A DNA stretch of 26,025 bases from a virus. Under the pieces are notes generated by a model. It was not told the DNA's origin and ran no database searches. It saw only the letters and a list, made by a program, of their open reading frames with translations. Position 1 is the stretch's first letter. The number at the start of each line of letters is the position of its first letter. The stretch is from the IMG/VR virus record IMGVR_UViG_3300026078_000993, positions 1-26,025 of that record; one strand, given 5' to 3'. This document shows, in pieces, positions 7,279 to 26,025 of the stretch. A program made the translations under genes and the position numbers.

Positions 7279-7536
7279 ATGACCGAACTGACGACCAAAA
7301 TCGGGGCCTTCGAGGCGGAAACGCGCTCGGTGCCTGTCACCTTCGCCAGCGGCGAAATCAAGCACGAACGGCGGGTCAATGCCGTCCTGAAGGACGACGG
7401 CAGCTATGATCGGGCCGCTACCAAAGAACGCGTTGCAGAAGTGGCGCTTGGCGTCGCGCAAAAGATCGGCCTTGGCGTCATCTCCGTGCCGCCGCCGGAC
7501 CCGGAAATGCCCGCTGTCGAATCGACAGCCGAATAA
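7279..7536 (+). CDS. Small unknown phage protein after the fibre genes
   Basis: An 85-aa acidic protein, MTELTTKIGAFEAETRSVPV at its start and a Pro/Glu-rich C-terminus. I do not recognise a family. It starts 12 bases after the fibre assembly stop, with GAGGA about 8 bases before the ATG, and codon use matches the tail genes, so it is probably a genuine member of this operon. The sequence TFASGEIKHERRVNAVLKDDGSYD suggests a small beta-hairpin domain, followed by a helix (KERVAEVALGVAQKI). Hairpins and a terminator follow, making it the last gene of the unit. Confidence 0.65.
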   Translation: MTELTTKIGAFEAETRSVPVTFASGEIKHERRVNAVLKDDGSYDRAATKERVAEVALGVAQKIGLGVISVPPPDPEMPAVESTAE

Positions 7537-7542
7537 AGACCG

Positions 7543-7565
7543 GCGGCGGCTATGAACGCCGCCGC
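7543..7565 (+). terminator. GC-rich hairpin after the fibre unit
   Basis: GCGGCGGC (7543-7550) pairs perfectly with GCCGCCGC (7558-7565) around a 7-nt loop. A second small hairpin (CCCCCT with AGGGGG) follows at about 7567-7585. No T-run follows the first stem, so it may stabilise the mRNA or act together with the terminator at 7635. Confidence 0.45.
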
Positions 7566-7634
7566 TCCCCCTTTGCGGAGGGGGCTTGGGATGTCCCCAC
7601 ATCTCCAAACCGCGAGCCTGCACTCGCACTCTCA

Positions 7635-7657
7635 GGGCGGCGCGCCCGCCCGTTTTT
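7635..7657 (+). terminator. Rho-independent terminator before the adenine methylase gene
   Basis: GGGCGG (7635-7640) pairs with CCGCCC (7646-7651) around CGCGC, followed by G and five T (7653-7657). It would end the J-I-H transcript and leave the adenine methylase, whose ATG is at 7709, to readthrough or its own promoter. Confidence 0.65.
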
Positions 7658-7708
7658 GAGTTCCCTCCGTGGCCTAGCCGCGTCGGGACATCTTGCAGGA
7701 TTTCCTAC

Positions 7709-8527
7709 ATGTCTACCCCTTTTGTTCCCGTTCGCCCGGTTTCTCCCGTCGCCGGATATATCGGCGGAAAACGCAACCTTTCCCGGCGGATATGCGCCAT
7801 CATCGATAGCATCCCGCACAGCAGCTATGCCGAACCCTTCGTGGGCATGGGCGGCATCTTCCTGCGCCGCACGCGTCGCCCGCGCGCCGAAGCGATCAAC
7901 GATATTTCCGGCGACGTCGTGACGCTGTTCCGCTGCCTTGCGGAGCATTATCCCTATCTGGTCGACATGCTGCGGTTCCGCGTGGCGAGCCGCGCCGAGT
8001 TCGAACGCCTGCTGGGGCAGGATCCCGATCACCTGACCGACCTTCAGCGCGCCGTGCGCTTCCTCTATGTCCAGCGCCTCGCATTCGGCGGCAAAGTGTC
8101 GGGCCGGGGTTTTGGAGTCGATGCCGCCGCACCTGCCCGTTTCGACGTCGGCAAGATCGAGCCTATGCTTGCTGATGTCCATGAACGGCTGCAGTCCGTC
8201 GTGATCGAGCGGCTTCCATATGCCGACTTCATCCGGCGCTATGATCGCGATGGCGCGCTATTCTATCTCGACCCGCCTTATTGGGCATGCGAGCGCGACT
8301 ATGGTGCCGATGTCTTCAACCGCAGCGATTTCGCTGCGCTGGCCGAGCAGCTGGCAGGGATCGAAGGCAAGTTCCTGATGTCGCTGAACGACACCCCCGG
8401 CGTCCGAGAGACCTTCGCGCGCTTCGCCATAGCCTCGATCGACACCACCTACAGCATCGGCGGCAAGCCGAAGAAGGCAGGCGAAGTGCTGATCAGCAAC
8501 TTCGCGCTGCCTGCTAACGATCTTTGA
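7709..8527 (+). CDS. DNA adenine methyltransferase, D12 (Dam) class
   Basis: A 272-aa N6-adenine DNA methyltransferase. The AdoMet-binding motif AEPFVGMGGIFLRR is at about residues 41-54, preceded by the GYIGGKRNL block (17-24) typical of D12 enzymes. The catalytic DPPY is at residues 188-191 (FYLDPPYWACERDYG). The order of motifs (F-G-G first, DPPY last) is that of Dam/DpnM-type enzymes. Recognition sequence cannot be read from the protein. The frame is open further upstream to 7586, but that part crosses the terminator and has no methylase-like sequence. The ATG at 7709 has GCAGGA eight bases before it. In a phage it most likely protects phage DNA from host restriction or affects gene expression. 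No matching endonuclease gene is nearby. Confidence 0.92.
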   Translation: MSTPFVPVRPVSPVAGYIGGKRNLSRRICAIIDSIPHSSYAEPFVGMGGIFLRRTRRPRAEAINDISGDVVTLFRCLAEHYPYLVDMLRFRVASRAEFERLLGQDPDHLTDLQRAVRFLYVQRLAFGGKVSGRGFGVDAAAPARFDVGKIEPMLADVHERLQSVVIERLPYADFIRRYDRDGALFYLDPPYWACERDYGADVFNRSDFAALAEQLAGIEGKFLMSLNDTPGVRETFARFAIASIDTTYSIGGKPKKAGEVLISNFALPANDL

Positions 8528-8534
8528 CGTTCAG

Positions 8535-8560
8535 CCTCTGCGCCCTCTTCGGCGCAGGGG
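8535..8560 (+). terminator. Stem-loop after the adenine methylase
   Basis: CCTCTGCGCC (8535-8544) pairs with GGCGCAGGGG (8551-8560) with one G-U pair and a 6-nt loop, eight bases after the stop codon. No T-run follows. It is probably a weak terminator or an mRNA-stabilising hairpin. Confidence 0.45.
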
Positions 8561-8623
8561 CAAAAGCGGTCGGCCCTCTATCGACCATTTGCGGTCATTC
8601 GCTTTAGCTGACACATTGCACCC

Positions 8624-9022
8624 ATGACGATCAAGCCGTGGCTGTCCGACGTTGTTGTCGTGAATGAGAGTAGCGCCGAGGCATTCGCTGGCGATATCTC
8701 AATCTTTCGGAGCGTAGGGGAGGCTTGCAGCTATCTTGAACATTGGTGGGTGGAGGAGGGCCATGGCTTTGCTTACACTGCGACGGGAGAGCGTATCAGC
8801 CTGGACACCCAAGGTGGAGCGGTGATCGCTATAAAATGCGAGGCCGTTCCCGGAGGCCAAGCGATCGTCCTGAATTGGCTTCGTCACTCGGCGGCAGCGG
8901 TTCTTGATGACCGAAAAATCAAAGCGGCAAAGCGGAAAGCAACCCTCGGCAACAGCGAACAAGACGGCATACTACCGGATTCTGTTGAAGGCCTGATTGC
9001 CTACATCGGCTTCATGAACTGA
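8624..9022 (+). CDS. Unknown protein between the methylase and the V operon
   Basis: A 132-aa soluble protein that I cannot assign. It reads MTIKPWLSDVVVVNESSAEA at the start, has an aromatic stretch EACSYLEHWWVEEGHGFAYTATGERISLD and ends DSVEGLIAYIGFMN. The pattern of YLE-WW-EEG-GFA-TATGER looks like a conserved small domain. Composition is less GC-rich than the tail genes, and no Shine-Dalgarno sequence is evident before the ATG at 8624. It lies alone between a hairpin and the second copy of the palindrome, so it looks like a late moron. A role as immunity or regulatory protein is possible but unsupported. Confidence 0.6.
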   Translation: MTIKPWLSDVVVVNESSAEAFAGDISIFRSVGEACSYLEHWWVEEGHGFAYTATGERISLDTQGGAVIAIKCEAVPGGQAIVLNWLRHSAAAVLDDRKIKAAKRKATLGNSEQDGILPDSVEGLIAYIGFMN

Positions 9023-9094
9023 CGACTGCTTTCCACCCATCTTTGACATTGCGGCGTAAAGGCGAGCCAACAAAGGGCAGCAAACAATCACCCG

Positions 9095-9121
9095 CATTTG
9101 TAGAGGCCGCCTCTACAAATG
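9095..9121. promoter_or_regulatory. 27-bp palindrome, copy 2, upstream of gpV (candidate late-activator site)
   Basis: Identical to the element at 3220-3246, including the CAG on its right. It ends 42 bases before the preferred gpV ATG at 9164. It contains TGT-N13-ACA. The first in-frame ATG of the gpV frame (9119) lies within its right arm, which is a reason to prefer 9164. No other copy was found in the window by eye. Confidence 0.55.
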
Positions 9122-9163
9122 CAGGCCAGCGAAACACAGGAAGCTGCACGCCATGGTCCGCCC

Positions 9164-9718
9164 ATGGCGCAATCTCAAGATCATGAACAGCTGACCGGGC
9201 AGGTCATCCAGCTAGGCACCATCGCATCGGTCGACCATGCCAACGCGACCTGCACCGTCGAAACGGGCGACATCACGACCGGCGATCTGCCATGGATCGC
9301 CCAACGCGCCGGCGGTGTCCGCAGCTGGTCGCCCCCGACTATCGGGGAACAGTGCGTCATCCTCTCCCCCGAAGGCGACATGGCAAGCGCCTTTGTCGTG
9401 CTGGGCCTCTATTCCGACGCCTGCCCGCCGCCGTCCACCAATCCGGACATCGTCCATCTGGAATTCGCAGACGGCGCGGTCGTCGCCTATGATCAGGCCG
9501 CGCATGCGCTGGCCGTCACCCTGCCTGATGGTGGGACCGCGACGATCGACGCCCCCGGCGGCGCCACCATCAACGGCGATGTGACGATCAACGGCAACGT
9601 CAATGTCGCGGGCACCGTGGATGCGTCTGACGACGTCCTGGGCGGCGGCAAGAGCCTCAAGAGCCACAAGCATAGTGGCGTCCAGGCTGGCGGAGCGCAG
9701 ACGGGAGCGCCCGTCTGA
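9164..9718 (+). CDS. V: Baseplate spike protein gpV
   Basis: A 184-aa protein of the phage baseplate assembly protein V family. It has an N-terminal OB-fold domain (GQVIQLGTIASVDHANATCTV... to GDLPWIAQRAGGVRSWSPPTIGEQCVILSPEGD, about 11-72). A repetitive beta-helix follows (GGATINGDVTINGNVNVAGTVDA, about 132-154). The tip SHKH (H168 and H170) is the HxH motif that coordinates an iron ion at the point of the P2 spike. The trimeric spike pierces the outer membrane. The start at 9164 is preferred over 9119, which falls in the palindrome. There is no strong Shine-Dalgarno site near 9164; AGGAAG lies about 20 bases upstream. Confidence 0.92.
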   Translation: MAQSQDHEQLTGQVIQLGTIASVDHANATCTVETGDITTGDLPWIAQRAGGVRSWSPPTIGEQCVILSPEGDMASAFVVLGLYSDACPPPSTNPDIVHLEFADGAVVAYDQAAHALAVTLPDGGTATIDAPGGATINGDVTINGNVNVAGTVDASDDVLGGGKSLKSHKHSGVQAGGAQTGAPV

Positions 9719-10068
9719 TGGCTGGCATGGCGCGCATCAGCGGGGCGGTTCTCGACGGCCTCGACCATATCAGGCAATCGGTGGCCGACATCCTGGGCAC
9801 GCCGATGGGATCGCGCGTCGGTCGCCGTGAATATGGCTCGCTGCTGCCTGAACTGATCGACCAGCCCATGACGCAGGCGAACATCCTGCGCCTTTACGCT
9901 GCGACCGCTGTCGCGCTCTCGCGTTGGGAAAACCGCATCCGCCTGCGCCGCGTCGGCCTGGTCACGGGCGCTCGCCCAGGCTCCGCCACCATCACGATCG
10001 ATGCGACCCGCACCGACGCCGGCGTCTCCAACGCCCTCGTCCGCCTCTCCATTCCCCTTTCCGTCTAG
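9718..10068 (+). CDS. W: Baseplate protein gpW (gp25-like)
   Basis: A 116-aa protein of the GPW/gp25 family, the baseplate sheath-initiator with a lysozyme-like fold lacking activity. The signature is DHIRQSVADILGTPMGSRVGRREYGSLLPELIDQPM (residues about 15-50), followed by the short helical WENRIRLRRV and a C-terminal beta segment. The ATG overlaps the gpV stop (TGATG). In P2, W follows V and precedes J; here the sheath gene follows W instead. Confidence 0.93.
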   Translation: MAGMARISGAVLDGLDHIRQSVADILGTPMGSRVGRREYGSLLPELIDQPMTQANILRLYAATAVALSRWENRIRLRRVGLVTGARPGSATITIDATRTDAGVSNALVRLSIPLSV

Positions 10069-10096
10069 CCCCCTCTTTCCAACCAAGGAGCCGATC

Positions 10097-11272
10097 ATGG
10101 CCTTCAAACATGGGATCACGCTTACCGAAATCAGCGAGGGCGCCCGTACCCTGACCGCTGTTTCCACCTCTATCATCGGCCTGGTCGCAACGGCGGCCGA
10201 CGCCGACGCCGACACCTTCCCGCTGAACCGCGCTGTCCGCATCACCGATATCGAAACGGCGATCGGCAAGGCCGGCGTCGATGGCACCCTTGCCATCGCC
10301 CTGCGCGCTATTGCGGACCAGGCCCGCCCCATCGTTGTGGTCGTCCGCGTCGAGGAAGGTGCTGACGCTGCCGGCACCACCGCCAATGTCATCGGTACCA
10401 CTGACGCCGATGGGCAGAAGACTGGCATGCAGGCGTTGCTGGCCGCGCAGGCGCAGCTGGGCGTGAAGCCGAAGATCATCGGTGCCCCCGGTCTGGAGAC
10501 GCAGGCGGTAATCGCCGCCCTGATCGTCATCGCCCAGAAGCTGCGCGGCTTCGCCTATGCCCGCCTTGTCGGCGAGACAACGGCCGACGCGATCCTGTTC
10601 CGCGCCAATTTCAGCGCGCGCGAACTGATGCTGCTCTATCCCGACTTCCTGGCATTCGATACCGCATCGGCCGCCAACATCGCCAGCTTTGCCGCTGCGC
10701 GCGCTATGGGCCTCCGCGCCCGGATCGATGAGGAAGTGGGGCCGCACAAAACCCTATCCAATTACGAGGTCCAGGGCGTCGTCGGTCTGACCAAGGACAT
10801 CTATTGGGATATCGAGGACGCGAGCAGCGAGGCGGGCCAGCTGAATGCCAAGGAAATCACGGCACTGATCCGCACCGACAGCGGCTATCGCTTCTGGGGC
10901 AACCGGACCACGGCGCCGGCGGAAAGCCAGTTCGTCTTCGAAAGCACGACCCGCGTCGCCCAGCTGATCGCGGACACCGTCGTCAACGGTATGATCTGGG
11001 CGATCGACAAGCCGATCACGCCGGCGCTTGCCCGCGACATTGTAGAGACGATCAACGGCTTCTTCCTTCAGCTGAAGGCCGCAGGCGTGATCCTGGGCGC
11101 CAATGCCCGCTTTGACGAAGCCGGCAACAGCACCGCTAGCCTGAAGGCCGGCAAGCTGCGGATCGACTATGACTTTACGGTCCCGCCGCCGCTGGAAGAG
11201 CTCGGTTTCAACCAGCGCATCACCGACAGCTATTTCGCGGACTTCGCGAGCCTGCTGACCGGCAACGCCTGA
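10097..11272 (+). CDS. FI: Contractile tail sheath protein gpFI
   Basis: A 391-aa sheath protein. The N-terminus MAFKHGITLTEISEGARTLTAVSTSIIGLVATA and the block PLNRAVRITDIETAIGKAG are characteristic of P2 FI. The C-terminal half carries the conserved (Y)RFWGNRTT segment and the final FTVPPPLEELGFNQRITDSYFADFA. It forms the outer contractile cylinder. Start ATG 10097 has AAGGAG eight bases before it; the frame is open further upstream but without similarity. The length fits the family (about 390-400 aa). Confidence 0.96.
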   Translation: MAFKHGITLTEISEGARTLTAVSTSIIGLVATAADADADTFPLNRAVRITDIETAIGKAGVDGTLAIALRAIADQARPIVVVVRVEEGADAAGTTANVIGTTDADGQKTGMQALLAAQAQLGVKPKIIGAPGLETQAVIAALIVIAQKLRGFAYARLVGETTADAILFRANFSARELMLLYPDFLAFDTASAANIASFAAARAMGLRARIDEEVGPHKTLSNYEVQGVVGLTKDIYWDIEDASSEAGQLNAKEITALIRTDSGYRFWGNRTTAPAESQFVFESTTRVAQLIADTVVNGMIWAIDKPITPALARDIVETINGFFLQLKAAGVILGANARFDEAGNSTASLKAGKLRIDYDFTVPPPLEELGFNQRITDSYFADFASLLTGNA

Positions 11273-11311
11273 CCGGCCCGCCTCTCCCCCTCATTTGCAT
11301 AGGAGCAAGCC

Positions 11312-11827
11312 ATGGGACTGCCCAGCATCCTCAAGAACATGATGCTTTTTAACGAAGGCCAGAATTACATGGGGGAGGTCAAGACCGTGACCCTGCCCCC
11401 GCTCACCCGCAAGATCGAGGAATGGCGCGGCGGCGGCATGCCTGGTGCCATCGGCATCGACATGGGCATGGACGGCCTGCTGGAAATGGCCTCCACCTTC
11501 GGCGGCCCGATGCGCGACATGCTGCGCCAGTTCGGCATCCTGGCGGTCAACGGCGTCTATCTGCGCTGGGTCGGCTTCCACCAGAAGGACGACACCGGCG
11601 CGACCGACAGCGTCGAGGTCGTCGCGCGCGGGCGTCACAATGAAATCGACATGGGCGACCAGGAAGTCGGCGAGGTCGGCGAATTCAAGGTCACGACCAC
11701 GCTCGCCTATTTCAAGCTGGTTTGGAATGGCCGAACCGAGATCGAATATGATCCGCTGAACGGCGTCTTCATCGTCAATGGCGTCGACCTGATGGCGCAG
11801 CAGCGCGCTTCTCTCGGCATGTTCTGA
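11312..11827 (+). CDS. FII: Tail tube protein gpFII
   Basis: A 171-aa tail tube protein of the P2 FII family, the inner tube through which DNA passes. It begins GLPSILKNMMLFNEGQNYMGEVKTVTLP and contains the typical MGMDGLLEMASTFGG block. The central RGRHNEIDMGDQEVGEVGEFKVTTTLAYFKLVWNG is strongly conserved in the family. AGGAG lies about 8 bases before the ATG. It is followed by a strong hairpin and then the damaged gene E. Confidence 0.96.
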   Translation: MGLPSILKNMMLFNEGQNYMGEVKTVTLPPLTRKIEEWRGGGMPGAIGIDMGMDGLLEMASTFGGPMRDMLRQFGILAVNGVYLRWVGFHQKDDTGATDSVEVVARGRHNEIDMGDQEVGEVGEFKVTTTLAYFKLVWNGRTEIEYDPLNGVFIVNGVDLMAQQRASLGMF

Positions 11828-11834
11828 TCCTTCC

Positions 11835-11857
11835 TGCCCGGCGCGGCGCGTCGGGCA
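11835..11857 (+). terminator. Strong hairpin between tube gene and gene E
   Basis: TGCCCGGCGC (11835-11844) pairs with GCGTCGGGCA (11848-11857) over ten pairs, one of them G-U, around a 3-nt loop. It begins seven bases after the FII stop. No T-run follows. It could lower readthrough from the highly expressed sheath and tube genes into E-T, or stabilise the upstream mRNA. Confidence 0.5.
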
Positions 11858-11868
11858 ACCTCTCCCCC

Positions 11869-11954
11869 CTTCATCACCGGGAATTTCTCATGAGCGACAC
11901 CAATGCCCCCCTGTTCCGCACCGTCACGCTCATGAGAAATTCCCGGTGATGAAG
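11869..11954. repeat. Perfect 28-bp inverted repeat across the start of gene E
   Basis: Bases 11869-11896 are the exact reverse complement of 11927-11954, with a 30-base loop (11897-11926). The left arm holds the sequence before gene E, its ATG (11890) and the next four bases. The right arm lies within what should be coding sequence and brings in two consecutive TGA codons (11947-11952). Pairing stops exactly at both ends of the arms. In RNA the stem would bury the gene E start site. Confidence 0.95.
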
Positions 11955-12198
11955 ACAGACGATCGCCACCCTCCAGCTGCGCAAGCCCAAGTCGGGCGAA
12001 CTGCGCGGCCTCTCCCTGGTCGATCTGGGCCAGCTGAAGGTCGACAGCCTGACCAAGCTGCTGCCCCGCATCTCGACCCCGCCCATTTCCGAAGTCGAAG
12101 CCGGCAATCTCGACCCGGCGGACCTGCTCGCATGCGGCGCGGAAATCGGCGGTTTTTTGTTGCAGAAGTCGCAGCGCATGGATGCCCTCGATCAGTAG
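11890..12198 (+). pseudogene. E: Tail assembly chaperone gpE, interrupted by in-frame stops
   Basis: The frame begins ATG 11890 (MSDTNAPLFRTVTL), meets TGA TGA at 11947-11952, then continues in the same frame as RQTIATLQLRKPKSGELRGL and LVDLGQLKVDSLTKLLPRIS down to LQKSQRMDALDQ and TAG at 12196. The part after the stops is clearly the P2-type tail assembly chaperone, in which a T-(I/V)-x-LRKP-SGELRG motif is conserved. The reading frame is kept across the lesion, so about eight to nine codons between VTL and QTIATL look replaced by an inverted copy of the start region. In P2, gpE and the frameshift product E+E' chaperone the tape measure, so loss should block tail assembly. A sequencing or assembly artefact is possible. 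Confidence 0.85.
12153..12159 (+). other. -1 programmed frameshift site T-TTT-TTG in gene E
   Basis: In the E frame the codons are GGT TTT TTG, giving the classic slippery heptamer T TTT TTG, as used between P2 E and E'. After a -1 slip the frame is open without a stop through 12344 and enters E' directly. The feature remains intact although E is broken upstream. Confidence 0.85.
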
Positions 12199-14797: not shown

Positions 14798-15201
14798 TGC
14801 ACCTGATGGCCCTTGGCATGTTCCTTTTTCAGATCCCGACGCTGGCCTATGATGAACTCCAACGAAAGACGGACTGGCGCTTTGCGATGGCAAGCCGGGT
14901 CGGGACGCGCGATGCAGCGCAGTTCCTGGGCGTGGGGGACGAGACGGTCAGCCTGTCCGGTTCGGTCTATGCGGAAATCACCGATGGCACTGTGTCGCTC
15001 GACACCCTGCGCGAGATGGGCGACGCTGGCGAAGCCTTGCCCCTGGTCAGCGGCGCCGGCATCGTCTTCGGCAATTTCATCATCCGTTCGATCGATGAGC
15101 GCCATGCCGTGCTGATGGCAGATGGCCGCCCCCTGCGCATCGACTTCGGCATCGACCTCTGGCGGGTGGATGACCCGGCCACCGCCCAGGCCGCCGAATG
15201 A
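14797..15201 (+). CDS. U: Tail protein gpU
   Basis: A 134-aa protein of the P2 gpU family, a tail tip or hub-associated structural protein acting with T and D. The signature MALGMFLFQIPTLAYDELQRKTDWRFA is at the N-terminus. The family block Y-x-E-T-G-x-L-x-L-R-M-G-x-A-LPLV-G-G-I-G-I-S is represented by YAEITDGTVSLDTLREMGDA and GEALPLVSGAG. ATG 14797 overlaps the T stop (TGATG); the second Met (14806) is an alternative. A long open extension upstream is a shadow of T. Confidence 0.93.
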   Translation: MHLMALGMFLFQIPTLAYDELQRKTDWRFAMASRVGTRDAAQFLGVGDETVSLSGSVYAEITDGTVSLDTLREMGDAGEALPLVSGAGIVFGNFIIRSIDERHAVLMADGRPLRIDFGIDLWRVDDPATAQAAE

Positions 15202-16208
15202 CCGACCGGATCATCAATATCCCCGATTGGCGCGTGACGCTCGACGGCAAGGATTTGACCGACAAGATGCGCCCGCGCCTGGTGTCGCTCAGCCTTTCGG
15301 AAAAGCGTGGCGACGAAGCCGACCAGCTGGATATCGTGCTGGACGACAGCGACGGCATGCTGGCAATCCCGAAGGAAGGTGCGACCCTGCAAGTCCAGCT
15401 GGGCTGGAAACAGGGCCGGGACGTCACTGTGGGCCTGGTCGACAAGGGCAGTTTCAAGGTGGACGATGTCACCCATAGCGGCCCGCCCGATCAGATCAGG
15501 ATACGCGCCCGGGCGGCTGACTTCACCAGCGCGATCCGCAACCGCCGGGAACAGAGCTGGAAGAACACGACGCTGGGTGCCGTGCTGACGGACGTCGCGG
15601 GCAGGAACAGCCTGACGCTGAAGGTAGCGGCCGACCTGGCATCGATCGCGCTGCCATCGGTCATACAGAACCGGGAAAGCGATATCGCCTTCCTGAAGCG
15701 CCTGGGCAGCGAAAACGACGCGGTCGCCACCATCAAGGACAAGCATCTGATCTTCGCGCGTAAGGGCGCCGGCACGACTACCAGCGGCAAGGCGCTCCCC
15801 ACCCTCACCATCACCCGCCGCGATGGCGACGGCCATAGCTGGTCGCGCCAGAAGCGGGACGGGCAGGAAGGCGTGACGGCCAGTTGGCACGACAAGAAGG
15901 GCGCGAAGCGCAAAACCTTCACCGTGGGCAAGGACGACGGCGCGAAGAAGCTGCGGAAGGTCTATCCCGACGAGGCGTCCGCGAAGCGCGCCGCCGTGGC
16001 GGAGCGGGACCGGCTGAAACGGGCGCCCGCCACGCTGGATATGAAACTGGCGCTGGGCCGGCCCGAGGCTTTCCCTGAAATGCGTGTGAAAGCATCTGGC
16101 TTCAAGGATGAAATCGACGCGACGACCTGGTTGATCGCGGAAGTCACGCACCGCCTCGATAATGGCGGCGGCTATGGCTCCGATCTGCGGATGGAACTGG
16201 GAGGCTGA
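15198..16208 (+). CDS. D: Tail hub protein gpD (late control D family)
   Basis: A 336-aa protein of the P2 gpD / late control gene D family, homologous to the T4 gp27 hub, on which the spike gpV sits. The pattern RPRLVSLSLSEKRGDEADQLDI at about residues 25-46, the SIALPSVIQNRESDIAFLKRLG block and the ITRRDGDGHSW-x-R section are typical. The C-terminus (WLIAEVTHRLDNGGGYGSDLRMELGG) is a classic end. The name 'late control' is historical; the role is structural. It overlaps U by four bases and is the last tail gene, followed by a terminator-like hairpin and the cargo island. Confidence 0.95.
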   Translation: MTDRIINIPDWRVTLDGKDLTDKMRPRLVSLSLSEKRGDEADQLDIVLDDSDGMLAIPKEGATLQVQLGWKQGRDVTVGLVDKGSFKVDDVTHSGPPDQIRIRARAADFTSAIRNRREQSWKNTTLGAVLTDVAGRNSLTLKVAADLASIALPSVIQNRESDIAFLKRLGSENDAVATIKDKHLIFARKGAGTTTSGKALPTLTITRRDGDGHSWSRQKRDGQEGVTASWHDKKGAKRKTFTVGKDDGAKKLRKVYPDEASAKRAAVAERDRLKRAPATLDMKLALGRPEAFPEMRVKASGFKDEIDATTWLIAEVTHRLDNGGGYGSDLRMELGG

Positions 16209-16300: not shown

Positions 16301-17377
16301 TTGATTTTGAGCTTGTTCTGTGGCGCGGGGGGGTTGGATCGGGGCTTCGAAGATGCTGGCTTCGATGTGGGTCTCGCATTCGATCGCAATGCCGATAGCG
16401 TGCTATCGTATAACAAAAACCGACCTAAAGCACCAAAGGGACACATTGCGGATGTCTCGACACTAACCCTTACGGACCTAGATAATCTGCATGGAGGCGT
16501 ATTCGCTCCCTCAGGGGTCATAGGTGGCCCACCCTGTCAGAGCTTCAGTCAGGCGAACGTACATCAGCGAATTGACGATCCGCGACACACCCTACCTGTC
16601 TCCTATGCACGCCTAATCCAGTCATTGAACGAGCGAAACCCCGTCGACTTCTTTGTAATGGAAAACGTAGTTGGTCTTACGATGAAGAAGCACCGTGAGA
16701 CATTGAATGAAACTTTACGCACGCTTGAATCGGCAGGCTTCCACGTGGAGCAGGAAATTCTAGACGCACAAAATTTCGGCACTCCCCAAGTTCGGCGACG
16801 GGTTTTTCTTGTCGGATTCAACAGAGAAAAATATCCCGGTCTGCGATGGAAGGCCCCTACTCCTGAGAGAAAGCCCTCTCTAACTGTGCGCGACGTAATA
16901 GAGAATCTTCCAGAACCGGTATATTTTAAAAAGGGCTTGAACTGCGAGGAATTTGACAAACATCCAAATCACTGGTGCATGCAACCCAAATCGGCGAAAT
17001 TCTTTCGCCACGCGGTGCTTACACCTTCCGCTGCGAAGGGCCGAAGCTTCAAAACTCTTGCTTGGGAGAAGCCCAGCTTTGCTGTTGCTTACGGCCATCG
17101 CGAAGTACATGTACACCCGGAAGGTAAACGCCGCCTGAGCGTCTATGAAGCAATGCTCTTACAAGGCTTCCCTCACACTTATCGATTGTATGGAAATTTG
17201 TCGTCTCAGTTTCGTCAGGTAAGTGAGGCGGTCCCCGTTCCGCTCGCGCGGGCGGTCGCACAATCAGTTGCAGATCAACTATTTGAGGCATGTTCAGCTG
17301 CCGACGTTGAGGTCAAGCGGCCTAATCCTATGCTCCCCCAGCCATCGCTGCCATCCCGGGATATCGAAGCCTGCTGA
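16301..17377 (+). CDS. DNA (cytosine-5) methyltransferase
   Basis: A 358-aa C5-cytosine methyltransferase with motifs in canonical order: I (LSLFCGAGGLDRGF, residues 3-16), IV with catalytic C79 (GGPPCQSFSQAN), VI (FFVMENVVGL, E121-N-V), VIII (QVRRRVFLVGF, 163-173), then the recognition region and motif X (QVSEAVPVPLARAV). The start is TTG 16301, since AAAGGGG precedes it by seven bases and the protein would lack motif I if it began later. The last 27 or so codons overlap the 3' end of the opposite-strand partner gene. Codon use is less GC-rich than the phage genes. Neighbours suggest a defence or modification cassette rather than a lone methylase. The target sequence is unknown. Confidence 0.94.
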   Translation: MILSLFCGAGGLDRGFEDAGFDVGLAFDRNADSVLSYNKNRPKAPKGHIADVSTLTLTDLDNLHGGVFAPSGVIGGPPCQSFSQANVHQRIDDPRHTLPVSYARLIQSLNERNPVDFFVMENVVGLTMKKHRETLNETLRTLESAGFHVEQEILDAQNFGTPQVRRRVFLVGFNREKYPGLRWKAPTPERKPSLTVRDVIENLPEPVYFKKGLNCEEFDKHPNHWCMQPKSAKFFRHAVLTPSAAKGRSFKTLAWEKPSFAVAYGHREVHVHPEGKRRLSVYEAMLLQGFPHTYRLYGNLSSQFRQVSEAVPVPLARAVAQSVADQLFEACSAADVEVKRPNPMLPQPSLPSRDIEAC

Positions 17378-18634
17378 ACGCAAAAGTTTTTCGGTCCCGG
17401 TAACAACTTCATTACGCAAATCCGTTTGATCTTCGATTGCCTGGTCCAAATTCCAGAGTTTCTTTGCTCGCGCAACAATCGCGACTGCATCTTGCAATTC
17501 CACATTTGGGACTACAATTGCGCCCCCTGTATTGGGGGCCTGAGCTTGAATTCCTTTCGGCGTGATACGAAATGCTAAGGAAAGCATATCTGGCTCATCC
17601 CGATGAACTTTATAAGCATATGCACTAACCAGCTCGACGCCGGCCGGAAGATTGATTTGAGCATGATAGAAATGTAATAAGTATTTACCAAGTCCTATAC
17701 AAAACAATCTTAAGAAATTTATATCCTGATTCGACCAACATCCATTCATTGCCGACGTAAGGTTATGCAACTGCGCATCGATACATTCAGAAAGCGGTTT
17801 CGCGAAAGCATCGTTGTGCTGATCAATGTTCTTACCTATCGCTGTTTGAAACTTCCGAGCAGGAACTCCGAGCAGATCAACGTCGGCGCGAGTAGTTACA
17901 AACAGTAACCACGGTTCTTTGGCAATCATCTGATGCTTTAATAATTTTTCCAGTGCATCAAACATCGAAGCTTTTCGATTCTTAGGCACGTAGCCAAGAT
18001 GATCACAAGCATCCATGTTGATTATATCAAAAACGCCCTGCCGATCCAGCATCGTTGCAGCAAGACTTTCATCCTGCGCTATATCTTCCAATCGATCCTT
18101 AAGGATCACCGCATCTTCTGTAATCCTGTCAGCTTGTCGCAGGGCTGACTCAGCAGCCAAGTATGCGCTCTTCGCTCCATTGGCCGCAACTTCCCCGTCG
18201 CCTTCGTAACCAGAATCAAAACCGAAATATTCTATCCGCGTTCCCGCTTCGACAAGAGAGTCCGCGAGCACACGAACGTCGAACAAATCCGCACCAGGCA
18301 GCGTAAAATAACGCAATTTATCTCGGCGTTCAGCCGAGCGATGGCTCTCAATCAGCCGTTTTGCACTCTCCACCCACTGCCTTTGACGCACAATTTGCTT
18401 AATAGGATGGTGCCACGGCTTGTAGTCGGTACGCAACGGCGCCATGACGAATTCATCGGAGCCATCATCTCCATGAACGATCCCGACGTAATCATCTTCC
18501 GCGATGTCGTCTGGCAATTTCTGCGATGTATCAGGCACCTGATGCAAATGGCTCTCCACCGCTGCTTTTGAAGGCTGCGCCATTTCGCCACGCAAATGTT
18601 CTGGAAGGTTATCACCCATTGAACCGCCGCTCAT
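17294..18634 (-). CDS. Partner protein of the GHKL ATPase (unknown, possible methyltransferase-like fold)
   Basis: A 446-aa soluble protein without signal peptide or membrane helix. I see no PD-(D/E)xK, HNH, GIY-YIG or PLD motif. Four blocks are spaced like strands of a Rossmann-type methyltransferase: RYFTLPGADLFDVRVLADSL (about 108-127), IEYFGFDSG (134-142), FDIINMDACDHLG (202-214) and PWLLFVTTRADVDLLG (243-258). The glycine-rich AdoMet loop is not convincing, so it may be degenerate; this fold is inference. Its ATG shares one base with the ATPase stop (TGATG), so the two are translationally coupled and probably act together. Its last 84 bases are antisense to the end of the methylase gene. 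Composition is AT-richer than the phage genes. Confidence 0.8.
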   Translation of the reverse strand: MSGGSMGDNLPEHLRGEMAQPSKAAVESHLHQVPDTSQKLPDDIAEDDYVGIVHGDDGSDEFVMAPLRTDYKPWHHPIKQIVRQRQWVESAKRLIESHRSAERRDKLRYFTLPGADLFDVRVLADSLVEAGTRIEYFGFDSGYEGDGEVAANGAKSAYLAAESALRQADRITEDAVILKDRLEDIAQDESLAATMLDRQGVFDIINMDACDHLGYVPKNRKASMFDALEKLLKHQMIAKEPWLLFVTTRADVDLLGVPARKFQTAIGKNIDQHNDAFAKPLSECIDAQLHNLTSAMNGCWSNQDINFLRLFCIGLGKYLLHFYHAQINLPAGVELVSAYAYKVHRDEPDMLSLAFRITPKGIQAQAPNTGGAIVVPNVELQDAVAIVARAKKLWNLDQAIEDQTDLRNEVVTGTEKLLRSAGFDIPGWQRWLGEHRIRPLDLNVGS

Positions 18635-20619
18635 CAGGCTTCCCCCAAGAAAACTGCAAAAATTGCTGCAATCAATTCTTGCTGCTCATCATATGTCCTT
18701 CCTTCAAGCACGTCATATGCGGCAAGGACTTGAACGAGCGCTTCCATTTGGCTGTCGCGCACGACTTGATCAACACTGCGATTTGCCCTGGGAATTTGAG
18801 CTTTTAATATCGCGAAAGAGCCAGATTCCCGAGCTTCCAGAGCTTGCATCGGCGTTTCAGCGATGACCACTTTTGGCACTGGCTCCGAACCTTTACGGCG
18901 TTCCCATATGCCACTCACTTGCCTGGATAGCTGCGTTCGCTCTTCCGTGGAGTTCGCGTCATTGCGAGCATCGCGCGCCTCTTTTGCTTCAGCTTTCAGG
19001 CGGTTAGTCAATTGCCGAATCGCACCGTGCAACCACAGACTAACCAACTGGAGGTGGGGATGAGCGAAATTAAATGACTCACGATCGATGTTAAGGGCAG
19101 CATCCAAGCCCCGATCAACAAATAATTCGGACGTTATCTGCCTAAGACGCGTTTGCTCCGAAACCTGATATTTAAAAAATGAGGGATCAAACAATGCCCC
19201 ACTGGCTTCTCTTATTCTTACAAGAACGCCATTATTTTCTTTTGGAATTATGCGACCACCCCACCAAAGATAGCCGTCCAATGACAGATCGCCTCCCCTC
19301 TTAGAGGTGGGTACGCGGCTTAGATCGGGTTCAAAGCGACCAACAAACATAACCGCTTTTTCCAAGCTACGCGCATCGGCCTTTCTGTAGGTGAACTTGA
19401 TCGGCCGCTTCAGCAAAACACCGTCTATAGTGACTTTGAACTGACCCAATGGATCACGCCCAGCTCGCAGCACTGGATTCCCAGGCGCCTGTGCCTCGAC
19501 GCCTTCTCGCACAGTTTGATTTGGTGAGAGTTCTATCGACAACCCTCTCCCACGCTCTTTTGTAACCCAGAAGAGCTGAACATCGTCGGAGCCGGTGAGG
19601 TCAAATGGATGCTTATCGACGTAGTCAACAGGCGCCGATAATCCAAGACTCCAAATCAATTCCAAATAGGCGTCGAGGGTCTTTGCCAATTCTGGTCTAT
19701 CGATCACGCTAGATTCAGCTTCAACCTTCTCCACCAGCTTCGACATGCGCATGTCGGCGGGATCATCGTCTGCCCAAGGCAAGTTGGGCTGTTCCGCAAA
19801 AAGGACAGGACCTTCCTTTGGATCGATCAATTTCCCTAGATAACCGGAATGGTAGCTAGGCCTTTCGACACTCATACTGGCCCAAGTATCGATATCGCCT
19901 TGCTGTTGCGCCGCTTCACGTTCCAGGACGCCTTCCCAGCGCTCTGAACTTCTCAAGATATCGCGAACTCGCGGTTTAACGTCATCTAAGATGATGTCGG
20001 TCCCATGAGCTTGCAAGTCATCGGAATGTTCACGCCGTATATATACGTCGCCGGTTACATAGTCGTCATCATCTTCAGCCTCGATTGCATTTTCACCGTC
20101 TTCATGATACGCTCTGAGCCTGATTTCAGCGATCAAACGATAACTTTCTCCGTACCGCTTTGTAATTATTTGGAAGCGACGTGAGAGCTGACTAATGGAG
20201 AAAAGACCAATACCGATTTTACCGATAATTGGTCGACCCGACGGTGTGCATTCAAGATTGTCTGCATCTGTAATACCAAGTTCGGCACCATCTTTCCGGC
20301 GCTTCGCGCTTCCACCGATGTTTTTGAGCATCCGAGACAGGCTTCGATGATCCATCCCAATGCCATTGTCGCGGACGTAAATTCGAGAAAAGCGCGGAGC
20401 ATCTGTCAAGATCGTAACAGACGTCGCGTCGGCATCCCAGGCATTGGAAATTAGTTCGCGTAAAGCAGACGCCGGCTGACGATAGATTCCATCGGTAACT
20501 CGCGCAATAACTCTGTCGCTAGTTCCGAGTTTCGTCTTCACCACCTCTCCATCGTGAGCGGGATCGCCCAGCCAGGATATAAGCTCTTCTTGCTTGTTAA
20601 TTTGCCGGGTATCAGTCAA
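18634..20619 (-). CDS. GHKL (Hsp90/MutL/MORC-type) ATPase
   Basis: A 661-aa protein with an N-terminal GHKL ATPase domain. The N box is RELISNAWDADA (E55 catalytic, N59 for magnesium), G1 is DNGIGM (84-89) and G2 is GKIGIGLFS (133-141). An Hsp90-like second domain probably follows (about 220-450) and a charged helical C-terminus at about 550-600 (KAEAKEARDARNDAN). The proximal ATP-site sequence is closest to Hsp90- or MORC-like proteins rather than histidine kinases, since no kinase or receiver parts are present. Start is TTG 20619, with GGAG seven bases before it. GHKL ATPases are known partners of restriction-modification and antiviral loci; a clamp or DNA-sensing role here is inferred from the methylase and coupled partner. 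Confidence 0.9.
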   Translation of the reverse strand: MTDTRQINKQEELISWLGDPAHDGEVVKTKLGTSDRVIARVTDGIYRQPASALRELISNAWDADATSVTILTDAPRFSRIYVRDNGIGMDHRSLSRMLKNIGGSAKRRKDGAELGITDADNLECTPSGRPIIGKIGIGLFSISQLSRRFQIITKRYGESYRLIAEIRLRAYHEDGENAIEAEDDDDYVTGDVYIRREHSDDLQAHGTDIILDDVKPRVRDILRSSERWEGVLEREAAQQQGDIDTWASMSVERPSYHSGYLGKLIDPKEGPVLFAEQPNLPWADDDPADMRMSKLVEKVEAESSVIDRPELAKTLDAYLELIWSLGLSAPVDYVDKHPFDLTGSDDVQLFWVTKERGRGLSIELSPNQTVREGVEAQAPGNPVLRAGRDPLGQFKVTIDGVLLKRPIKFTYRKADARSLEKAVMFVGRFEPDLSRVPTSKRGGDLSLDGYLWWGGRIIPKENNGVLVRIREASGALFDPSFFKYQVSEQTRLRQITSELFVDRGLDAALNIDRESFNFAHPHLQLVSLWLHGAIRQLTNRLKAEAKEARDARNDANSTEERTQLSRQVSGIWERRKGSEPVPKVVIAETPMQALEARESGSFAILKAQIPRANRSVDQVVRDSQMEALVQVLAAYDVLEGRTYDEQQELIAAIFAVFLGEA

Positions 20620-20736: not shown

Positions 20737-21252
20737 TTATGACTGTCCGGCAAACCGAATGTCAGTCAGATGCCAACTCAGACCATCGCGTTTGAAGATC
20801 AGCGACGCCCCCGTCTCGTCCTCCTTGTTCACCAGACGGAACTCTGACAGCCCTACCCGCTCCATCTCCAAATTCTTCAGCCGCACGCCGATCTTCCCCT
20901 CTCCAGGCTTCGGTTCTGGCGCGTTGGCGAACACCTCGCGCATGGCCGCAGGCGTCACCAACGCCTCCACCATGCCCTCGACCATGTTCACGGCGAAGGC
21001 AGCACCCAGGGCAGCAAATGGATTATCGTCTTTGGCCTTGATCATTTCGGCGGCCATCTTCGCTTTCATCTGATCTTTCAGAGAAGCGCGTAAGGCAGGA
21101 AAGTCGATATATCCGGCCAGCTTGTCGGCATCTTTCGCCTCGGCCGCAGCCTGCATTTCATGAAGCGTCCAGCGCGGTGATCCGAAATACCATCCCGCAC
21201 CAATCGCAACCGCCGCCACCAGAGCGAGCGCCGCATAAAATCTCGACTTCAT
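20737..21252 (-). CDS. DUF2939-family membrane-anchored protein
   Basis: A 171-aa protein with one N-terminal membrane or signal helix (FYAALALVAAVAIGAGWYF, residues 5-23). The exported part opens SPRWTLHEMQAAAEAKDADKLAGYIDFPALRASLKDQM, the pattern of DUF2939. The C-terminal part (LKNLEMERVGLSEFRLVNKE, then DGLSWHLTDIRF) fits the same family. The molecular role of the family is unknown. GC-rich composition matches the phage or host, unlike the adjacent ATPase. It lies between repressor and ATPase on the same strand, so it may be expressed in the lysogen as a surface-modifying or exclusion protein; that role is inference. Confidence 0.75.
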   Translation of the reverse strand: MKSRFYAALALVAAVAIGAGWYFGSPRWTLHEMQAAAEAKDADKLAGYIDFPALRASLKDQMKAKMAAEMIKAKDDNPFAALGAAFAVNMVEGMVEALVTPAAMREVFANAPEPKPGEGKIGVRLKNLEMERVGLSEFRLVNKEDETGASLIFKRDGLSWHLTDIRFAGQS

Positions 21253-21470: not shown

Positions 21471-22019
21471 TCAGGTGCGCGACGGCGGTACGGGTGCGGG
21501 ATGACCTGTGGCGGGAGATTGAGACGCTGTTGCGGCTCCAGTCGAGTAACCCAACCCCTGATCGATCGCGAACGGTCCAATTGCTGCAAAACCAGATGGA
21601 AGCCGCTGAGCAAGAATTCGAGCGGCTTCGGCCCGCGTTGCGTCCGCTGGCACCAATGCCAGTAGGCTTTCGAACATATCGGCCAGCGCGGCTTCACTAG
21701 GCAACGCGACAGGCAGACTGATGAACTGAACCGGTGGCTGCTCGGCCTCGATCTTGCGCGCCTCTGGTTCAGCCTCGCTTCCCACCAATCCGGCCAATTT
21801 CATGACCTCTGAGGGATCAACCTTGTGACGCGCCAATACGGAAGCGACTTTACGAGCAAAATCGATAGGCAGATATTGCTTCTTGTAACCGCCATGGCCT
21901 TCATAACGAGCGTATGAGCCTAACGGCATATCCAATGCCTCCGCCATGGCTCGCACCGTCAAGCGCGGAATCGCCGACTTCCTTAGATCCTTGAGCTTTG
22001 CGGTCGCGCTATTTTCCAT
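21471..22019 (-). CDS. Phage repressor, HTH (Xre-like) transcription regulator
   Basis: A 182-aa protein with an N-terminal helix-turn-helix: LTVRAMAEALDMPLGSYARYEG (residues about 19-40), the pattern of Xre/C1-type regulators. It carries no LexA/S24 peptidase core that I can see, and the C-terminus is short and Pro/Ala/Ser-rich. It is read divergently from a Cro-like gene, the normal lysogeny switch layout. Start ATG 22019 (MENSATAKLKDL) is preferred; the frame is open to 22055, but the extra codons would run into the operator region. How it is inactivated cannot be seen. Confidence 0.8.
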   Translation of the reverse strand: MENSATAKLKDLRKSAIPRLTVRAMAEALDMPLGSYARYEGHGGYKKQYLPIDFARKVASVLARHKVDPSEVMKLAGLVGSEAEPEARKIEAEQPPVQFISLPVALPSEAALADMFESLLALVPADATRAEAARILAQRLPSGFAAIGPFAIDQGLGYSTGAATASQSPATGHPAPVPPSRT

Positions 22020-22102
22020 ACGATCAATGTGCGTAAAAGTGGAACAATGTCTCACCCAAGATGAGGGTTGACTGGTGTTCGCGTTTGTGGAACATCACCC
22101 TA
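22020..22102. promoter_or_regulatory. Divergent operator/promoter region of the lysogeny switch
   Basis: The 83 bp between repressor and Cro-like gene hold a direct repeat GTGGAACA at 22039-22046 and 22087-22094. An inverted half-site, TGTTC, is at 22076-22080, so TGTTC-N9-GAACA forms a dyad (22076-22094). TTGACT at 22068-22073 could be the -35 of the early promoter, with a poor -10. These are likely binding sites of the repressor and/or Cro-like protein. Confidence 0.5.
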
Positions 22103-24527: not shown

Positions 24528-24880
24528 CCACCGCCATCGTGAAACTGGACACCCGCGTCAGCAGAGCGGTCGGCATCGGCAAGGGCATCCGCCTCGAACC
24601 CGCCGACCTCGATCTGTTGGTCAGCCTGGGACTGATCGACCTCCTCCACGACGCCAAAACGCAAGCACTTAAGGAACAGGCAGCATGTCGGCAAAATCGG
24701 CGCCAATCTATCGGCGCGGCAAATACTGGCTCGATTGGGACGTCAAGGCCGACGGATCACGCCGTTCCCCCAACCTCACCATCTTCTGGTACGATCCCGA
24801 CACGCGACGCGTCCGCAGCGCTTCGACGGGCACAGCGGACGAGGATGCCGGGATCGTTGCACTCGACCGCCGCTACCTAG
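24524..24880 (+). CDS. Unknown early protein overlapping the integrase start
   Basis: ATG 24524 gives 118 aa. The first 55 or so residues (TTAIVKLDTRVSRAVGIGKG, then IRLEPADLDLLVSLGLIDLLHDAKTQALKEQAA) look like a small folded domain. The remaining low-complexity part runs in another frame inside the integrase gene for 196 bases and may be only a tail. An excisionase-like function is possible from its place just before int but is unsupported. I recognise no family. Confidence 0.5.
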   Translation: MTTAIVKLDTRVSRAVGIGKGIRLEPADLDLLVSLGLIDLLHDAKTQALKEQAACRQNRRQSIGAANTGSIGTSRPTDHAVPPTSPSSGTIPTRDASAALRRAQRTRMPGSLHSTAAT

Positions 24881-26025
24881 CGGACGCGAGCGAAGCGCCT
24901 GCATTCTGCCATGCCTGCGGCCAGCCGCTCGCACTTGCTCAGGCCTATCTCCTCACCGATGCGGTCGCGGATTATCGCCTCGAATGGGGCGACGCCCGCC
25001 TGTCGGGCGCCACCATCGAAGGCCGCCTGAAGCACGTCACCGAATTCCTCGAAGCGCAGGAGGCCGAACCCGCCGGTAAATTCGGCGTGGCCACGACCTG
25101 CGCCGCCGCCTGCACCAAAGTCTTCGTCAACGCTTTCCGCGCCTGGTTGAGCGAGCGCCCGGTGGAATGGAAGAACAAGGACGGCGAAGTCACCGTTTCC
25201 CGTCCGCGCTCCCCGGCCGCCGTGGAAGCCGCCATCGCGCAGCTGATCGCCGTCCTCAACCATGCAGCCAACGCCGACCCGCCACGTTCGGACAAGCGCC
25301 CGACCTATCGCCCGCTACCTGCCGCCCAGGTGCAGCGTAAACGCCGTACCCGCATCGGCGTCCCGGAACTGGCGGAAATGCTCAAATATGCGGCCGAAGC
25401 AGAAAAGCCGCGTGGATCGCTGCATGCCTTCCTGATCGGCACGCTCTGCACGATTGCACGCCCCAGCTCCGTGGTGGACATCTCGGTCCAACCGGCCCGC
25501 CAGCAATGGTGGCCCGGCTCCGCGACGATCGATCTCAACCCCGCCGGCCGCCGCCAGACGAAGAAATTCCGCCCGATGCTCCCGGTCCTGCCTTTACTGG
25601 ATCAATGGCTCTGCGCTGAATATGCCGATTGGCTTGCCGTGGAAGATGGCCTGAAACCGTCACGTGGCTGGCTGGTCAACTATTACGGCCGGGGTATTCA
25701 GGACGTCGACCGCGCCTGGGACACAATGCTGCACGCGCTCGACTATCCCACCGGCCGCGAATGGCGCTCCTATGTCCTGCGCCACAGCCTGGCCACCCTC
25801 TGCCGCAATCGCGGCGCCGAGCGCTGGGATCTGGAAGGCTTCATGGGCCACCGCGCCCCGTCGCAGACCGAAGTCTATGCGATGGGCGAATTTCCGTCGG
25901 TTCAGAAGGCTTTGCAGGGAATCATCGACGAAATCGACCAACGGGCACCCGGCACCCTGCGCCGGGTTCACACCGGAACGCAAAAAGCGCTCGAAAGCGC
26001 AAAGGAGCCAAAAATGTCAGGATAA
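24685..26025 (+). CDS. int: Tyrosine-recombinase integrase
   Basis: A 446-aa phage integrase. The core-domain residues are R259 (TIARPSSVVDI), K293/K294 (TKKFRPML), R366-H367 (SYVLRHSLATLC), H389 (FMGHR) and the nucleophile Y398 (EVYAMGE). The first position of the HxxR motif is Y363 instead of His, a tolerated but less usual variant. An N-terminal domain (to about residue 230) includes the core-binding helices and a C-x2-C pair (CHACGQ). It is read in the lytic direction at the end of the early operon, with GGAACAG about ten bases before the ATG. The attachment site should lie just beyond 26025. Confidence 0.92.
   Translation: MSAKSAPIYRRGKYWLDWDVKADGSRRSPNLTIFWYDPDTRRVRSASTGTADEDAGIVALDRRYLADASEAPAFCHACGQPLALAQAYLLTDAVADYRLEWGDARLSGATIEGRLKHVTEFLEAQEAEPAGKFGVATTCAAACTKVFVNAFRAWLSERPVEWKNKDGEVTVSRPRSPAAVEAAIAQLIAVLNHAANADPPRSDKRPTYRPLPAAQVQRKRRTRIGVPELAEMLKYAAEAEKPRGSLHAFLIGTLCTIARPSSVVDISVQPARQQWWPGSATIDLNPAGRRQTKKFRPMLPVLPLLDQWLCAEYADWLAVEDGLKPSRGWLVNYYGRGIQDVDRAWDTMLHALDYPTGREWRSYVLRHSLATLCRNRGAERWDLEGFMGHRAPSQTEVYAMGEFPSVQKALQGIIDEIDQRAPGTLRRVHTGTQKALESAKEPKMSG

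Follow-up and report, generated by a model that had tools for sequence, protein, structure and literature searches.

The 26,025-base IMG/VR virus record IMGVR_UViG_3300026078_000993 (hereafter the window, meaning the whole stretch of DNA that was analyzed) carries an island of three genes, encoding a C5-cytosine DNA methyltransferase, a GHKL ATPase and a partner protein. The methylase gene (16301..17377, + strand; 358 amino acids, TTG start) is convergent to the other two, overlapping by 84 bp the 3′ end of the partner gene (17294..18634, − strand; 446 amino acids, ATG start), which follows the ATPase gene (18634..20619, − strand; 661 amino acids, TTG start). A single base is common to the ATPase stop codon and the partner start codon (TGATG, 18632..18636, − strand), and the two genes overlap by 1–4 nt in most homologous loci (gene geometry, 20 loci). 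Translational coupling is predicted for the ATPase and the partner only, because the methylase gene lies on the opposite strand, overlapping the 3′ end of the partner gene. An earlier note on this DNA had reported the same three open reading frames (ORFs) and coordinates, the two TTG starts and the ATPase-partner coupling, all of which agree with the sequence. It had also called the island AT-richer than its surroundings, as is the case: GC content is 0.500 across the trio and 0.626 in the 4-kb flanks, and is likewise below that of the flanks in all full trios compared (20/20). Promoter and terminator scans of the window gave matches no more common than in shuffled sequences, and therefore we make no claim on regulation.

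The methylase carries the key motifs of C5-methyltransferases (GGPPCQ, ENV, QxRRR), in agreement with the earlier assignment; the Pfam model DNA_methylase (PF00145) spans residues 2–323 with 200.6 bits, above its gathering cut-off, TIGR00675 matches with 166 bits, and the nearest solved relative by sequence is M.HaeIII (1dct; phmmer, E=2.4e-36). The target-recognition region (NHWxMxPKS...RSF) is kept in the compared methylases, with the exception of that from locus L077, whose target-recognition region is different.

Identification of the 661-residue protein as a GHKL ATPase likewise holds (Pfam HATPase_c_3, 57.7 bits). In an AlphaFold 2 (AF2) model with a predicted local distance difference test score (pLDDT) of 80.8, residues 32–549 form the ATPase and transducer domains and structurally match Hsp90, MORC3, MutL and topoisomerase VI (VIA-align Z of 17.1 for Hsc82, 16.0 for MORC3, 14.6 for MutL). 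Beyond the transducer lie a long helix (521–576) and a small C-terminal domain, which the structure searches hardly probed. The nucleotide motifs ExxxN, DxGxG and GxxGxG are present, with E55, N59, D84, G86, G88 and G133/136/138 invariant in all 11 aligned rows, and the ATP site is intact. One trio ATPase gene, at L156 (2246–4227), is split into two reading frames and is probably broken.

The partner, which the earlier note had regarded as unrecognized, belongs to NCBIfam family NF047698 (287.7 bits against a curated cut-off of 200, residues 64–432), the PP_RS20740 family of unknown function; PP_RS20740 of Pseudomonas putida is a hypothetical protein from a study of furfural-tolerance evolution (PMC9630843). 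Searching solved structures with the partner sequence returned nothing credible. The structure prediction that the note had proposed (AF2, 20 members; pLDDT 81, predicted template modeling score 0.80) gives a class-I methyltransferase fold, which among solved structures comes closest to Trm1, a tRNA methyltransferase (VIA-align Z 13.7, root-mean-square deviation 4.2, 232 residues); the 50 matches listed (Z 10.1–13.7) are nearly all methyltransferases, and histamine methyltransferases are the top Foldseek matches. As modeled, the likeness is one of fold, not function: the S-adenosylmethionine (SAM)-binding motif I ([DE]xGxGxG) occurs in 0 of 18 members, also in loose form, and a DPPY-like motif IV in none of the same 18. 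Residues that are invariant even in the distant homologue at L174 (W74, K79, R83, W87, Y109, L112, D119, G138, N206, D208, C210, Q235 and T247) map, by our reading of the secondary structure, to an N-terminal helix and to the ends of four strands (1, 2, 4 and 5). Class-I methyltransferases hold cofactor and substrate at those strand ends. The partner thus seems to keep a methyltransferase fold with a rebuilt pocket, and to be repurposed rather than decaying, because a different pocket is strictly conserved; of the ‘degraded methyltransferase fold’ suggested earlier, the fold and the loss of canonical motifs stand, and the decay does not.

Linkage and co-divergence of the three genes

Each locus search used either the ATPase or the partner as its only query and was thus blind to neighboring genes. 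This search of the pair's neighborhood, which the earlier note had also called for, recovered the full trio in 21 loci: the window, an alphaproteobacterial metagenome-assembled genome (L065), two genomes (L068 and L172) and 17 more IMG/VR contigs. Between L065 and the window, identity is 58% for the methylase, 58% for the ATPase and 50% for the partner. At L173, partner and methylase are present and the ATPase is lost to the contig end; at L174 (3990–8108), distant homologues of ATPase and partner are preceded by an N6/N4 DNA methylase, not a C5-methylase. Leaving aside L154 and L159, which start inside or at the partner gene and are not judgeable, a DNA methylase is adjacent in 23 of 23 loci, so that the pair is not, as the note had allowed it might be, found mostly without one. 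Gene order is convergent in the window, L065, L068, L069, L172 and L173, and colinear orders occur as well; with two orders in existence, the linkage is more than a single ancestral arrangement kept unchanged. Taken together, these comparisons indicate that the three genes are one conserved, mobile module.

Vsr mismatch endonucleases are known companions of C5-methylases. Genes encoding them lie directly beside the trio at L077 (11245–11856) and L172 (11042–11482), and at L069 a vsr gene ∼1.3 kb upstream adjoins genes for an Eco29kI-like restriction enzyme and for a further methylase.

Pairwise identities of ATPase and partner are closely correlated (r=0.974), those of the methylase with either less so (0.84–0.87). 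The ATPase tree unites the window, L065 and L069 with full support; the methylase data reject this clade and place L069 with L074 instead (approximately unbiased test, p=1.5e-25; identity values already at hand had prompted the tested grouping, and the branch of L077 is long, yet the size of the effect is very large). The methylase has been swapped at least once, at L069, leaving ATPase and partner as the stable core of a module with an exchangeable methylase. Within the main family such replacement may keep the same target, because the target-recognition region is conserved. The different target-recognition region at L077 and the N6/N4 methylase at L174 imply that the pair is able to work with other methylases, and we infer that the pair either takes its specificity from the methylase or co-diverges with it.

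Several further searches returned nothing: the L070 partner had no match in the plasmid collection (the only one searched with it), the L160 partner none in the phage collection (likewise), and E. coli genomes held no near match to the L070 trio DNA. Scans of viral contigs with the single proteins P0002 (the window partner) and P0003 were also empty, whereas alignment-based scans did find loci.

The insertion site and its cargo

The window belongs to a P2-like prophage, and its P2-like tail genes extend to gpD, the tail/baseplate hub gene (15198..16208, + strand; PF05954, 63.5 bits), which is kept in related viral loci and marks the left edge of the insertion site. The right edge is a conserved phage gene of unknown function (21471..22055, − strand), located in related viral loci by tblastn. 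Across 26 related prophage loci, the interval between the two measures 0.9–7.5 kb and holds mostly unrelated cargo, including LmuB, PtuA, PDC-S06, NsnA/GmrSD, and a C5-methylase alongside a type II restriction enzyme; the site of the trio is a defense-cargo hotspot in these prophages. In P2-like phages, hotspots of this kind are known from other sites (PMC9122126). A DUF2939 protein gene (20737..21252, − strand; PF11159, 100 bits) lies between the trio and the right edge; it is an optional hotspot gene outside the module, since it occurs in just three related loci. Among the other cargoes, that of L008 (7949–12125) includes a protein with a HEPN/Toprim N-terminal domain (10818–12125), near a gene for a 798-residue protein matched by neither Pfam nor PADLOC. 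At the far end of the record, a 446-codon ORF (24685–26025) has a weak integrase match (21 bits, below the cut-off) and a homologue with 88% identity in L042.

One close prophage relative (L002; 91% identity in the gpU-region query protein) carries in the same hotspot (7371–11432) a C5-methylase, Vsr, a GHKL ATPase of 481 residues and a PF20553 methyltransferase of 338 residues. Homologues of this ATPase and PF20553 protein (37% and 24% identity, respectively) are adjacent in a DISARM-type operon at L179 (23–12707), and a PF20553 protein 92% identical to that of L002 is encoded on a Microvirga plasmid (L181, 333–16592) in the order vsr, drmD, MmeI-like, ATPase, O-methyltransferase, drmA, DUF1998, drmC; at both L179 and L181 the ATPase-PF20553 pair is located between the methylase and drmA. 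Homology of the window partner to PF20553 was unsupported in a profile comparison, which, with one or two sequences on the opposite side, had little power, and the one short aligned stretch falls at an LPGxDLLDVR motif; under the same limit, the L002 ATPase was not joined to the window ATPase family. These pairs are parallel to that of the window in composition only, because homology, tested with little power, was not found. A non-homologous set of the same parts thus shares the prophage hotspot, and its ATPase-methyltransferase pair recurs inside DISARM.

Proposed mode of action and its alternatives

We favor, as rather better than an even bet, the reading that the trio is an R-M (restriction-modification)-like mobile defense module, in which the methylase marks self and a complex of ATPase and partner attacks unmarked DNA as reader and clamp. 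MutL, Hsp90 and MORC proteins act as ATP-gated clamps. To judge from its family, the C5-methylase would mark resident DNA; the ATPase and the partner, made from one coupled message and strictly co-evolving, would form the restriction unit; the partner would most likely bind DNA at or near the methylase target site, its conserved pocket reading a base or cofactor; and the ATPase dimer would act as an ATP-gated clamp that closes on unmodified DNA, blocking or destroying incoming DNA, with either cleavage or nuclease-free silencing as the end result. Complex formation, methylation sensing and defense are all suggested by analogy with MutL, MORC and R-M-associated GHKL proteins (PMC2292703).

Several observations weigh against this reading. 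Searches with Pfam, NCBIfam and PADLOC turned up no nuclease domain in the three trio proteins, in line with the earlier note, which had seen no nuclease motif, and the restriction step therefore has no recognizable catalyst; on the ATPase, PADLOC returned only two REase_II models, weak and lying over the ATPase domain, and none of its models matched the partner. PP_RS20740, the namesake of the partner family, is known from furfural-tolerance evolution alone (PMC9630843). The family is rare, being carried by 2 of the 398 Pseudomonadota genomes that were sampled and by 4 of 297 genomes of one order (centre genomes included in both), and neither the plasmid nor the phage collection matched the window partner. 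Because several of the loci are near-duplicates, the independent cases are fewer, perhaps a dozen, and many loci come from viral contigs, a bias toward mobile contexts.

The strongest alternative, to which we give somewhat less than an even chance, is a nuclease-based R-M system whose active site goes unrecognized, lying in the partner pocket or the ATPase C-terminus, with the ATPase acting like MutL, which would loop or clamp the DNA and license the cut; it is a sub-case of the favored reading, so that our confidences in the two overlap. In BbrUII/HgiDII-type pairs, a GHKL protein of ∼660 residues beside a C5-methylase is annotated as the restriction enzyme, and the invariant polar residues of the partner (K79, R83, D119, N206, D208, C210 and Q235) would suffice for an active site. 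However, nothing beyond the ATPase domain matched a nuclease family in the three databases, the conserved partner columns hold no (D/E)xK, HNH, GIY-YIG or PLD motif, the structural matches are methyltransferases and ATPase-transducer proteins only, and the window ATPase aligns with BbrUII-type proteins over the ATPase domain alone. The folds of the trio are accounted for except at the ATPase C-terminus. By the criteria for type II R-M systems, the methylase is present and no endonuclease domain of a known kind is detected; nor does any trio protein match Response_reg_2 (PF19192), the hallmark of two-component-like R-M elements (PMC8011034).

Nuclease-free silencing strikes us as doubtful: here the partner would sense missing 5-methylcytosine at the sites of the methylase itself and load the MORC/Hsp90-like ATPase as a topological clamp, by which unmodified DNA would be compacted or blocked. 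If true, such silencing would be a bacterial counterpart of MORC silencing driven by DNA methylation. We also think it unlikely that the partner is an unusual but active second methyltransferase (of DNA, RNA or protein) in a module that modifies or self-marks without restriction. Its class-I fold, with Trm1 as best solved match, and its strong conservation at the expected strand ends agree with such an activity, but SAM motif I and a DPPY-type motif IV are missing in all 18 members, and a purely modifying role leaves the coupled clamp-type ATPase and the defense hotspot unexplained. An orphan methylase beside unrelated two-gene cargo, which the opposite strand of the window methylase and its lack of co-transcription with the pair might suggest, is rejected as highly improbable, since such coincidence is contradicted by co-occurrence in 21 full trios, in two orientations, and by the methylase next to every judgeable pair.

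The module unites a clamp-type ATPase with a methyltransferase-fold protein devoid of the canonical motifs, and has no recognizable nuclease. If such pairs read methylation, GHKL-mediated coupling of methylation to silencing or cutting becomes testable; coupling of this kind has been proposed as what the MORC proteins of eukaryotes did ancestrally.

Comparison with known systems

The association of GHKL ATPases with R-M operons is an established theme (PMC2292703, Iyer, Abhiman and Aravind 2008). Like the trio, the paraMORC and MORC R-M operons described there combine a GHKL ATPase and transducer (S5) domain with an adjoining cytosine methylase, are laterally mobile and often include Vsr. In contrast to them, the trio has neither a helicase nor a restriction endonuclease-fold gene, and its partner is a methyltransferase-fold protein. 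MORC membership of the ATPase was not borne out, the S5-domain signature GhXhhpXXRhl (PMC2292703) occurring in 0 of 20 sequences; of the C-terminal features that mark paraMORC1–5 (nuclease, TIR, HxH or ExxxH), the ATPase gives no nuclease or TIR match in Pfam, and the family has no ExxxH in common. The module resembles paraMORC R-M operons, from which it is set apart by an ATPase that fits none of the testable subfamilies, by a methyltransferase-fold partner without canonical motifs, and by the lack of helicase and nuclease genes in the module.

BbrUII/HgiDII-type systems (NF050001) resemble the trio in that, in prophages, a GHKL protein of ∼660 residues accompanies a C5-methylase, the two genes being convergent or colinear. 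The window ATPase scores 64.7 bits against NF050001, far below the cut-off of 550, with the ATPase domain alone aligning. Dozens of viral loci in our set (L080–L151) hold a C5-methylase near a BbrUII/HgiDII-like protein of this size, in both relative orientations; the partner-family gene was not found there.

The DISARM variants at L181 and L179 share with the trio a GHKL ATPase adjoining a methyltransferase-family gene and tied to a DNA methylase, and L181 has Vsr as well, but these variants comprise a full helicase/DUF1998/PLD system. The ATPases and partners of L002 and L179 show no detectable homology to those of the window, and PADLOC found no DrmA or DrmB match in a scan covering the three trio proteins only. 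A GHKL domain with transducer also occurs in VcSduA, a Shedu protein of the paraMORC3 type, where it controls anti-phage activity (PMC12137116); VcSduA, however, is a single protein with a fused PD-(D/E)xK DUF4263 nuclease, whereas DUF4263 was not matched in the trio, and the Pfam matches of the ATPase at E<=0.1 are HATPase and Sacsin-domain models only.

No description of the module was found in the open-access literature searched. NF047698, of which the window partner is a member, here gains a system context in a conserved three-gene, methylation-linked and probably defensive module.

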